Source: Eubacterium sp.
GTDB lineage: Bacteria > Bacillota > Clostridia > Acetivibrionales > DSM-1351
Assembly: GCA_029266335.1 (NCBI GenBank)
Contig: JAQSXC010000013.1
Span: 1-46,185 of the forward strand
DNA: 46,185 nt
Direction of reading: 5' to 3'
In this document: one piece after another, positions 19,668-46,078 of the stretch
Layout of the letters: the number at the start of each line of letters is the position of its first letter
Numbering within the stretch: position 1 is the first letter of the stretch
Position numbers and translations under genes: made by a program
The notes under the pieces: generated by a model
What the model was told of the DNA's origin: nothing
What the model saw: the letters and a program-made list of their open reading frames with translations, nothing else
Database searches by the model: none

Positions 19668-19864
19668 CTTTTTCCCTCCTATTCTAAAATAAGTATATTC
19701 TTAGTTATATGAATATGTACCTGTTTTTAGAACAAAAATTCTAAAAATCAGTCACTAAAATATATTACATTATTTCCCATAAAACAAAAGCATGTTTTTA
19801 TTCATATGAGAGGTTTGTTGTACAAGCCAGTCATAATTTATAAAATTCTGAATATAGTTTTATA

Positions 19865-19954
19865 ACGCATAGGTCAAAATAAAATTTTCCGGCTGTAGAA
19901 AAATTTTATACCTTAAGTGCGTTTCAACTAGGCACAGGTGTCCTCAAGGACACC
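19865..19954 (+). repeat. Structured ~90-nt element, copy A (spoIIP leader)
   Basis: ACGCA (19865-19869) pairs with TGCGT (19918-19922); inside, GGT pairs with ACC and ATAAAATTTT (19879-19888) pairs with AAAATTTTAT (19900-19909) around a loop containing GGCTGTA. A second hairpin GGTGTCC-TCAA-GGACACC (19937-19954) follows. About three quarters of the bases match a reverse-complement copy at 26664-26751. It lies in the leader of spoIIP, 63 bases before its start. It matches no riboswitch class I can name. Confidence 0.65.
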
Positions 19955-20017
19955 ATGCACATCTGTTGCCTTGTTATAAATTTTTTTTTAATCCAATCGT
20001 TATTTATGGAGGCTGTT

Positions 20018-21292
20018 ATGAGAGAAGCTGCAAGATTTGAAGGAAATTCTTACTGCAATGGATCAAATATGGAAAGCAACAAAGGCAATTTTTCAAGATT
20101 ACCAATAATACTATGCGCAGTTGCAGGGATTCTAATCGGAGGACTGGCCTTTAGAGCCGCATACGGAAACATAAACATATCGGATTTAAAAATCGGAGCT
20201 CAGTCCGGGAGTCAGGCAGAAAAGACTGATTCCTTTGGTGTTATAAAGGATATCATATTTCAGGCTTTTGGTATGGATCGTTATAATCCGATTACAATAT
20301 TAAACTCAAATTCTACTTTTTTTGAGGAATACTACAAAAATGATTACCTTAAATTCATAGCGGAAAAAGAGCAGCAGAAACTGGAAGAACAAATAGTTTC
20401 CATTGATGAGGTTCATGATGATCCTCCTAAGACAAGTGTGGAACCTGCTGAAGCAAGTCCTGAAAGTACAGTTTCATCAGGTACTGGTGCATTGAAGGAG
20501 GTATCCAGCAGTATTACTTTTGAAAGTGATGTAGACAGTAGTGATCAGTTGAAGAATCCTACGGTCACAAACGGTAAAATCAAAGTGGTGAACGAAACTA
20601 AATACAATATTGATATAAATAAACTGTTAAAGGAGCCTCTAAAACTTAATCCTGTAAAAACTGGACCTCAGATATTTGTTTATCATACTCACACGACAGA
20701 AAGCTTTCTGAGAAATGTCAGCCAGCTTAATAACAGCGCAAATGTACCCTCTAGAACCACAGACAGCAATTATAATGTAGTGAGAGTAGGAGATGCATTG
20801 ATAAATAATTTGAAAAAATTCAAGATAAATGTTCTTCACAATACAACAATACATGATAAGGATTATAACAGTTCATATGTTAAATCTCTGGGTACCCTTA
20901 CCAACTATGTAGAAAAGTATCCATCACTAAAAATGACAATTGATCTTCACAGAGATGCTGCAGGAGATGACAAACTGAGAGTTGCCAAAAAAATTAACGG
21001 AAAAGATTATGCACAGATAATGTTTGTTATTGGAACTGATTCCAAGCTTAGCAACCCAAAATGGAGGGAAAACTTAAAACTGGCATTAAAACTGCAATCA
21101 AGGCTGAACGAAATAGCTCCGGGGATTGCTAAACCAACTTACATAAGCAAAAACAGGTATAACCAGCATTTGACAAATGGATCGGTAATAATTGAAATAG
21201 GAGGGGACGGAAATGTCATTGATGAGTGTGTAAGAAGTACCGGATATTTGGCACAGGCAATCAATGACGTTATATATAAAAATAAATATTAA
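20018..21292 (+). CDS. spoIIP: Stage II sporulation protein P
   Basis: SpoIIP is the amidase and endopeptidase of the SpoIIDMP engulfment machine that degrades peptidoglycan at the sporulation septum. The 424-aa protein has an N-terminal membrane anchor (LPIILCAVAGILIGGLAFRAAY, ~28-50), a variable linker and the SpoIIP domain from about 200: IFVYHTHTTESFL, DSNYNVVRVGDAL, TIDLHRDAAGD, the NPKWRENLKLALKLQSRL segment and IIEIGGDGNVIDE. The His and Glu residues of these motifs are the expected zinc ligands and catalytic groups. ATG at 20018 has GGAGG upstream; the frame is open from 19955. The usual neighbour gpr is absent, but lepA follows at 2.5 kb, as in many Clostridia. The gene should be under SigE control. 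Confidence 0.93.
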   Translation: MREAARFEGNSYCNGSNMESNKGNFSRLPIILCAVAGILIGGLAFRAAYGNINISDLKIGAQSGSQAEKTDSFGVIKDIIFQAFGMDRYNPITILNSNSTFFEEYYKNDYLKFIAEKEQQKLEEQIVSIDEVHDDPPKTSVEPAEASPESTVSSGTGALKEVSSSITFESDVDSSDQLKNPTVTNGKIKVVNETKYNIDINKLLKEPLKLNPVKTGPQIFVYHTHTTESFLRNVSQLNNSANVPSRTTDSNYNVVRVGDALINNLKKFKINVLHNTTIHDKDYNSSYVKSLGTLTNYVEKYPSLKMTIDLHRDAAGDDKLRVAKKINGKDYAQIMFVIGTDSKLSNPKWRENLKLALKLQSRLNEIAPGIAKPTYISKNRYNQHLTNGSVIIEIGGDGNVIDECVRSTGYLAQAINDVIYKNKY

Positions 21293-26541: not shown

Positions 26542-26590
26542 TTGGGTTTCATCAAATGCACTTAATTTCGCCATACAGTTATAACGAGGC

Positions 26591-26621
26591 AAAAAAAGAT
26601 GTCCCCCACCTTTACAGGTGG
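26591..26621 (-). terminator. Minus-strand hairpin followed by U-run downstream of element copy B
   Basis: Read on the minus strand, CCACCT-GTAA-AGGTGG (26621 down to 26606) is followed after 8 bases by seven U residues (26597-26591). The 8-base gap is longer than in a standard terminator. Confidence 0.4.
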
Positions 26622-26663
26622 CAAGTACCTATTTGCTTTTCAAGGTGAAAGGCATATCCATGT

Positions 26664-26751
26664 TGTCCCATTGGACACCTTTGTCTCGTCGAAACGCCAG
26701 AGGTAAGAAAATTTTTTTACAGCCTAAAAATTTTCTATTGAACCGATGCGT
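26664..26751 (-). repeat. Structured ~90-nt element, copy B (inverted)
   Basis: On the minus strand this 88-base segment matches copy A. The lower stem ACGCA/GCGT, the GGT/ACC pairing, the AGAAAATTTTT/AAAAATTTTCT stem and the GGCTGTA loop are all kept, and the trailing TGTCC/GGACA hairpin is present. The outer base pairs of the upper stem changed together between copies (AT with AT in A; AG with CT in B). It precedes the nucleotidyltransferase gene but points away from it. Confidence 0.65.
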
Positions 26752-26789
26752 TACAAGTCATACAACAAAAATGTGAAAGGATGGATCTG

Positions 26790-44746: not shown

Positions 44747-46078
44747 AAAGGAGTGTAAATATGTCAAAGTTTTTTACCTATGAAGAAAGATTAACCCTAC
44801 AGAAATACCTAAAGGAGAGTTTATCCTTTAAAGAAATCTCTAAATATTTGGATAAAAATCCAACTACAATTTCCAGAGAAGTCCGTAAGCATTCATCGGA
44901 GGTTGCAACCGGATATCCCGGATTTCCATACAACTCTTGCAAAAGCCGTTTTACGTGCCGAAAGAAATCACTATGCGGCAAGGAATGTACAAGATCTTCA
45001 ACCGTATACTGCAAACTCTGTTCAAAGTGTAATGACAACTGCTCAGATTACATTGAAGAAATCTGTACTGCAAGATTCCGTGTACCTTATGCCTGCAATG
45101 GTTGTGAACAAATCAGCAAATGCACATTGTTGAAAACCATTTATGATGCCGAGCATTCCCATGTTAAAGCCCATGAAACCATATCTGAATCCCGCAGCGG
45201 CCTTTGTATATGCGAAGAAGAAATATCACGACTAAACGCAATTATCAGCCCACTGGTGAAGCAAGGACAGTCTATACACCAGATTTATATATCGCACGAA
45301 AATGAGCTTATGTGCAGTGAGAAAACCATTTACAATTACATAGATGCCTGCATTCTGGATGTCCGCAACATTGACCTTCCCAGGAAAGTTAAATTCCGTG
45401 AACGCTACAAAAAGCCGGAATTCAAAGTGGACAAGGGTTGCAGGATTGGGCGTAATTATGAATCATTTCAAAGCTACATGAAAGCTAATCCTGACATAGC
45501 AATTGTTCAAATGGACTCAGTAATTGGATCGAAAGGAGGAAAATGCTTGCTCACAGTACATTTCGTAGAAATCAGTTTAATGCTTGCCTTTCTTAGAGAA
45601 TCTAATACCTCTCAATCAGTCATAGACATATTTAACGATCTAGATAAAAAGTTAGGGCGTGAACTGTTTAAAAAGCTTTTTCCTGTTATTCTGACTGATA
45701 ACGGTAGTGAGTTTTCCAATCCAAAGGCTATCGAATATGGAGCTGAACTACACGGTATGCGTACACGTATCTATTATTGTGATGCTGGCTGTCCACACCA
45801 AAAAGGAGCTATTGAGGTGAATCACAGTTTGATTCGCAGGGTGCTTCCGAAAGGGACATGCTTTAATCATTTGACACAGGAAGACATAACTCGAATGATG
45901 AACCATATCAATTCATACAAAAGAAAAAAGCTGAACAATCGTAGCCCTTACGAAACATTCAGCTTTTACCATGGAGAAGAGGTCTTGCAAAAACTTGGAT
46001 GCTCAGCGGTTACAGCCGATGAAATCCATCTAAAACCAAGTCTTCTCAAAAGATAGAACAAAAAACTGTGCCGCCAAC
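44737..46078 (+). mobile_element. IS30-family insertion sequence (boundaries tentative)
   Basis: GTTGGCGGCA at 44737-44746 is repeated inverted at 46069-46078 (TGCCGCCAAC), tightly bracketing the transposase gene and giving a 1342-bp element, normal for IS30 types. The match stops at 10 bp, shorter than most IS30 ends, and only a trivial AA flanks both sides, so a target duplication is not established. Confidence 0.55.
44761..46056 (+). CDS. IS30-family DDE transposase
   Basis: A 431-aa transposase. The N-terminal helix-turn-helix is YEERLTLQKYLKESLSFKEI continuing to NPTTISREVRKH (~5-45). A cysteine-rich insertion (~60-125: CRKKSLCGKEC, CKLCSKCNDNC, CNGCEQISKC) probably binds zinc. The catalytic core shows the DDE residues in VQMDSVIG, ILTDNGSEFSNP and GAIEVNHSLIR. 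It is longer than most IS30 transposases because of the cysteine insertion. ATG follows AAGGAG. The frame is intact, so the element may be active. Confidence 0.93.
   Translation: MSKFFTYEERLTLQKYLKESLSFKEISKYLDKNPTTISREVRKHSSEVATGYPGFPYNSCKSRFTCRKKSLCGKECTRSSTVYCKLCSKCNDNCSDYIEEICTARFRVPYACNGCEQISKCTLLKTIYDAEHSHVKAHETISESRSGLCICEEEISRLNAIISPLVKQGQSIHQIYISHENELMCSEKTIYNYIDACILDVRNIDLPRKVKFRERYKKPEFKVDKGCRIGRNYESFQSYMKANPDIAIVQMDSVIGSKGGKCLLTVHFVEISLMLAFLRESNTSQSVIDIFNDLDKKLGRELFKKLFPVILTDNGSEFSNPKAIEYGAELHGMRTRIYYCDAGCPHQKGAIEVNHSLIRRVLPKGTCFNHLTQEDITRMMNHINSYKRKKLNNRSPYETFSFYHGEEVLQKLGCSAVTADEIHLKPSLLKR

Follow-up and report, generated by a model that had tools for sequence, protein, structure and literature searches.

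A two-hairpin sequence dispersed through Clostridia genomes and inserted at TTAT sites

The described sequences closest to the one analysed here are short intergenic repeats and insertion sequences. REP sequences are presented as palindromes scattered between genes and presumed to be mobilised by the single-strand nuclease TnpA-REP (PMC6006769), and the bcr repeats as short, high-copy, intergenic, MITE-like stem-loop sequences with TTTAT motifs tied to their mobility (PMC6542083, PMC3446304, PMC2267715). According to a further paper, the orientation of IS200/IS605 members recapitulates replication, and the same paper reports an orientation bias for other, beta-clamp-binding IS families (PMC5371812). 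For IStrons, the sites TTGAT, ATTAT and TTTAT are given (PMC4227781).

The window, a stretch of 46,185 nucleotides, belongs to a genome (G000) that was placed in Ruminiclostridium by named orthologous loci. A first-pass annotation had marked two copies of a structured element, on the plus strand at 19865–19954 and on the minus strand at 26664–26751; both are present there, and both carry the described ACGCA/TGCGT stem, GGT/ACC, A/T upper stem and GGCTGTA loop. The loop, said to be invariant, also occurs as GATTGTA, GACTATA and other variants among the copies, and the ends had been drawn too short, as copy 1 extends to 19977 instead of 19954 and copy 2 to 26581 instead of 26664. When 16 strict-pattern copies were read with their flanks, the full unit was TTAT-AACGCAT...GCCTCG-TTAT, with the left boundary directly after the first TTAT, and thus passed the annotated end. 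Its order is TTAT, a hairpin P1 (AACGCA...TGCGTT), the linker TC, a second hairpin P2, and TTAT; P1 is the fold described before, and P2 had been missed. The P2 arms, AACGAGGC and GCCTCGTT, enclose a variable interior, and the trailing GTGTCC/GGACA hairpin of the first description does exist, though rather as a variable insert inside this second stem. Most elements are ∼85–180 bp long (modal length 148–150 bp without the left TTAT), and their ends carry a short inverted TTATAACG/CGTTATAA, with no inverted repeat found there beyond ∼8 bp. Elsewhere in the window, a 431-aa open reading frame at 44761–46056 looks like an IS30-family transposase, judging its translation by eye.

Table 1. Element copies and neighbouring features in the window (L171–L173 are the spoIIP loci of R. 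cellobioparum, R. cellobioparum subsp. termitidis and R. hungatei).
Feature	Position	Strand	Basis or remark
Left TTAT flank of copy 1 (target site)	19860–19863	+	Single TTAT at the empty site in L171–L173
Element copy 1, 114 bp, just upstream of spoIIP	19864–19977	+	Empty site in congeners
P1 hairpin of copy 1 (AACGCA...TGCGTT)	19864–19923	+	Folding and covariation
P1 loop GGCTGTA of copy 1	19891–19897	+	Conserved, not invariant
P2 hairpin of copy 1	19926–19975	+	Arms AACTAGGC (19926–19933) and GCCTTGTT (19968–19975), 7/8 paired
Inner GGTGTCC/GGACACC hairpin of copy 1	19937–19954	+	Variable insert inside P2
Right TTAT of copy 1	19974–19977	+	Empty-site comparison
spoIIP, downstream of copy 1	20018–21292	+	Name from the first-pass annotation; 5 named Ruminiclostridium records carry orthologues
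P2 domain of copy 2	26583–26690	-	Arms GACGAGAC (26683–26690) and GCCTCGTT (26583–26590), 7/8 paired
Element copy 2, 172 bp	26581–26752	-	Site empty in L171–L173
P1 hairpin of copy 2 with TC linker	26691–26752	-	
Left flank of copy 2, TTGT instead of the usual TTAT	26753–26756	-	

A covariance model of 78 positions (R1), built from 16 copies, recovered 99 matches at E ≤ 0.01 in the window's own genome, two of which were the same site on the other strand; there are thus 97 distinct sites where two copies had been reported. A strict pattern found 16 copies in this genome and its reversed control found 0. The search of Clostridia genomes that had been proposed with the first description recovered the element across the genus (7 of 11 genomes), the order (26 of 58 genomes, spread over 13 of 30 genera) and, under stricter filters, the class (19 of 391 genomes, spread over 12 of 222 genera), the own genome being counted at each level. 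The element is therefore dispersed through Clostridia genomes. In the complete genome of a congener (G003), 51 matches at E ≤ 0.1, minus 4 opposite-strand matches at the same sites, left 47 sites, some of them head-to-tail units with a common end site, and G041, an assembly 93% complete, had 38 matches at 34 distinct sites. A head-to-tail array of element units with a period of 165 bp was seen at one G003 locus (L080). The printed element stretches at four loci from four genera (L117, L119, L120, and L235) were identical, and the adjoining genes there resemble, by eye, an arsenic-type permease/thioredoxin cluster, which suggests horizontal transfer of the whole locus. A distant blastn search of plasmid and phage records with one long-form copy gave no match; in IMG/VR, the long pattern was not found, and the 15-base core occurred in 55 stretches, of which 0 had a model match and 0 the flanking fold. 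No literature on this family was recognised among the open-access papers searched, and the family, ordinary in kind as a mobile repeat yet widespread, could not be matched to a described one.

Comparison of loci within the genus revealed sites with and without the element. In the spoIIP leader, the three congeners of Table 1 read GAATATAGTTTTATAAATTT, and the window reads GAATATAGTTTTAT followed by the element and AAATTT, so that the three congeners have an exact junction with a single TTAT. The site of copy 2 is empty in the same three loci, which have TTAAT or CTTAA there and no exact TTAT; a further spoIIP locus (L174) aligned poorly at both window sites, and L175 was left out of the empty-site alignment. 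R1 matched none of the five orthologous spoIIP loci, those of papyrosolvens and sufflavum included. A third insertion (L009) ends the gene upstream of an rng-like gene, where the GTT TTA TAA stop uses the first two bases of the element, and this junction lacks the element in 10 of the 10 other genomes of the genus. Because congeners lack these three insertions, the sequence is a mobile element rather than a leader conserved at spoIIP, and we regard its being mobile DNA as nearly certain. Among the identities first proposed, that of a new leader RNA is not supported, as three orthologous leaders read through an empty TTAT and the other two loci gave no model match, and that of a non-autonomous mobile element is borne out by the dispersed copies, the empty sites in relatives, the patchy distribution and the TTAT at both ends. 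In G001 and G010, which are close relatives, the flanks of four pairs of copies match (L027/L035, L034/L028, L044/L045, and L049/L055), so that some sites persist, which speaks against constant movement.

Across several genomes, the word on the left was TTAT in 89 of 113 copies, and that on the right was TTAT in 84 of the 109 copies whose right end was found, in a search that allowed nine words only and thus leans to TTAT-like ends. The first position after the right TTAT was A in 82/109 copies and the second was A in 60/109. Insertion thus occurs at TTAT, often TTATAA, and leaves TTAT on both sides.

The copies point one way relative to replication, clearly in G003 and weakly in the window's own genome. 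G003 is a single contig of 4.82 Mb, sampled in 20 stretches, in which the GC skew stays positive up to 2.18 Mb and is negative beyond 2.40 Mb inclusive, with one sample about zero, and 45 of its 47 sites are oriented with replication, the top strand being the minus strand in the first half and the plus strand in the second. Counted as clusters, 38 of 40 follow replication, versus 211 of 262 sampled open reading frames on the leading strand (Fisher P = 0.025, binomial P = 0.0098). By a simple caller, 0 of the 47 copies lie inside an open reading frame, and all 16 copies with at least one lagging-strand neighbour gene, at 14 independent places, keep their orientation, so transcription does not explain the pattern in this genome. 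In the own genome, skew was read in the window and in 20 stretches picked because they contain copies; where the skew is clear, 21 of 29 copies follow it, with 8 reversed, including copy 1, and 2 of 2 at weak skew follow it as well. The share of open reading frames on the leading strand in these stretches (289/341) is higher than that of the copies, at divergent or convergent gene pairs 4 copies follow replication and 3 do not, two copies lie inside an open reading frame by the simple caller, and 14 of 20 contigs are concordant (random P = 0.018); this modest bias leaves replication and transcription unseparated. Eight of the nine G041 contigs with at least 2 copies are one-stranded (random P = 0.004), which alone does not split replication from gene direction, and in G021 one of only four pairs was concordant. 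Since other IS families, which bind the beta-clamp, are reported to show a bias too, such orientation is not exclusive to single-strand transposition.

Copy 1, the copy folded by itself, gave a z-score of -5.85 as single-stranded DNA, far better than shuffles, of which 0 of 200 were as good. Alignment A2 comprised 28 of 32 long-form copies, leaving out L073, whose interior differs, L151 and L247, in which the left end is shifted, and the near-duplicate L054. RNAalifold returned only P1 and P2 for this alignment, with changes on both sides in 13 of 22 pairs. Once two inner helices had been added by hand, both-side changes occurred in 18 of 35 pairs over the 28 rows, versus at most 9 in slid controls, and the covariation score was 0.200, versus at most 0.087 for slid partners; 0 of 500 shuffles reached the pair count or any of five measures, outcomes that are not probabilities, as the rows are related. 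An inner hairpin, P4, was dropped as weak (60.2% of cells paired). The paired changes first noticed in the stems of the two window copies are thus real and numerous across the long-form copies, and the likeness is not confined to an AT-rich stem. P1 may even be replaced wholesale, as in G003 units with AATACC/GGTATT. At L049, L055, L085, and L042, P1 is a perfect or almost perfect palindrome, as though either arm had served as the template for its partner.

Covariation between copies of a repeat is by itself no proof of a regulatory RNA. Selection on one RNA strand should favour G.T over A.C departures from pairing. In the 28-row alignment, G.T and A.C departures were nearly equal (50 versus 49, each at 20 of 35 pair positions), and the covariation therefore reflects selection on base pairing that is most likely that of DNA; a second count, in the P2 arms of 109 copies, gave 42 G.T versus 28 A.C and is a caution, and a small control of 18 tRNA acceptor stems gave 7 versus 1. 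A small RNA family, another of the identities first proposed, is disfavoured by the lack of a G.T excess in the alignment and by the orientation in G003, which follows replication and not the neighbouring genes (less clearly so in the window's own genome), with the P2-arm count on its side. More broadly, a transcribed RNA (a leader, small RNA or decay element) that mobility had dispersed and the host later put to use would be consistent with the strong covariation, the persistent sites in G001 and G010 and the P2-arm count, and the bcr1–3 repeats are reported to lie often in UTRs (PMC3446304). Directly upstream of copy 1, a block at 19810–19863 (GTACAAGCCAGT...GAATATAGTTTT) that is conserved in L171–L174 looks like a promoter; as copy 1 lies just behind it, this copy is probably transcribed as part of the spoIIP 5′ UTR. 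The equal departures in the alignment, a G003 orientation that is independent of neighbouring genes, and the absence of conservation at the three sites compared among congeners nevertheless make such an RNA very unlikely. Rfam, in addition, gave no match in the window at the gathering score, and at a permissive E-value returned two sub-threshold, chance-level matches in one search and none in another of four loci, so that the first-pass statement that no known riboswitch class fits holds for Rfam and no known family was recovered. Empty sites, replication orientation and the G.T/A.C balance jointly point away from RNA and toward a DNA hairpin element.

The sequence is probably a short non-autonomous mobile DNA element of two hairpins that moves as single-stranded DNA at replication forks, in the manner of IS200/IS605 or REP; the single-strand fork mechanism, taken by itself, we place just on the likely side. 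Like the transposases of IS200/IS605, an enzyme acting in trans would recognise the hairpins of one strand during its single-stranded phase as the lagging-strand template, would cut at two TTAT/ATAA sites, and would insert the excised single strand elsewhere, again at a fork. Of the two strands, the lower (5′-TTATAACGAGGC...GCGTTATAA-3′) would be the likelier active one, because of the orientation and the additional target preference on the right flank (A, A after TTAT).

The same ends could come from a miniature element that a DDE transposase or site-specific recombinase moves in trans, TTAT being the fixed 4-bp target or crossover site and forks being targeted, for example through the beta-clamp; we consider this possible but unlikely. 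A fixed TTAT duplication and single-strand transfer look alike in the present data, the TTAT on both sides and the single TTAT at the empty spoIIP site fitting the former equally well, and the element ends do carry short inverted sequences; bcr mobility is likewise described as possibly resembling site-specific recombination, with TTTAT motifs (PMC6542083). The inverted repeat is, however, at most ∼8 bp, and the element has two separate hairpins instead of paired ends. Among 14 copies whose non-TTAT left word was also allowed on the right, only 2 repeated it there, both TTTT, which in a nine-word search argues weakly against a duplicated target.

Y1 genes were sought in the own genome, six congeners and the order. 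Of the 26 genomes that carry the element 22 had such a gene, as did 23 of the 32 that lack it, a hand tally with no clear association. The own genome has only one frame-split and one truncated Y1 gene, no long Y1 frame was found in G000, G003, or G041, and G041, for all its 38 element matches in an assembly 93% complete, gave no Y1 match at all. No convincing element ends were found at the Y1 loci inspected (24 from the own genome and six congeners and 24 from the order, some overlapping and comprising part of the order's Y1 matches), where the best matches, of 11.6 and 7.5 bits, were at chance level. Nor did an autonomous copy appear between paired nearby elements in G042 and G043, where the enclosed genes look ordinary, and the searches linked no transposase to the element. 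Y1 matches in frames of ∼250–380 aa are common in the order, and at one locus in G036 (L364, 1501–2774) the end of a 312-aa RAYT-like Y1 gene lies ∼110 bp from an element in convergent orientation, the sole such neighbour seen. Both observations would suit a REP-like sequence moved, as in a REPtron, by a RAYT-type (TnpA-REP) Y1 protein; the other inspected Y1 loci, which do not cover all Y1 matches of the order, the three genomes that lack a long Y1 frame and the lack of a GTAG foot speak against it and render it very unlikely.

An IS200-type element of the genus (L103 and L105–L110 in G002; L095 in G001) has TTAT on the left flank in the printed copies. Its Y1 matches in G002, for which no skew was computed, lie on the plus strand to 1.60 Mb and on the minus strand from 2.01 Mb, the same kind of bias with a polarity opposite to that of the element's top strand, and on account of this opposite polarity the genus's own IS200 was dropped as a candidate mover via the top-strand TTAT. 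Because G041 has 34 distinct sites and no detected Y1 gene, a mover other than Y1 is suggested, and the element might belong to a family, extending across Clostridia, whose single-strand, replication-coupled movement depends on a non-Y1 enzyme, a tentative proposal that we hold to be rather unlikely. If it is true, the two-hairpin anatomy with TTAT at both ends marks an undescribed mobilisation system. Mobility in any case accounts for some hundred structured sites in a single genome and for the scattered ones in 13 of the 30 genera of the order, and orphan repeats, bcr1 among them, lend themselves directly to the tests of empty sites, replication orientation and G.T/A.C balance.

Set beside known systems, the element resembles IS200/IS605 and its derivatives in its hairpins near the ends, its tetranucleotide site and, in G003, its replication-linked orientation, which is modest in G000 and absent in G021 (1 of 4 pairs). 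It differs from them in having no tnpA or tnpB, no ends common to the inspected Y1 loci, the same TTAT word at both ends, and a polarity opposite to that of the genus's IS200. With REP sequences and REPINs it shares a dispersed, intergenic and palindromic nature, but it is longer, consists of two different hairpins, has TTAT in place of a GTAG/CGTC-type foot, and neighbours a RAYT gene at one locus. Rfam families likewise have covarying hairpins, and none matched in the window at the gathering score. The TTATAAC/GTTATAA of the element resembles the outer boxes of integron attC sites; an attC site would be one hairpin of R and L boxes beside an integron integrase, whereas the element has the two hairpins P1 and P2. 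The Bacillus cereus group, which hosts the bcr repeats, is another class of Firmicutes than the hosts of the element. Compared by description, bcr1–bcr3 are like the element short, high-copy, intergenic, MITE-like and stem-loop forming.
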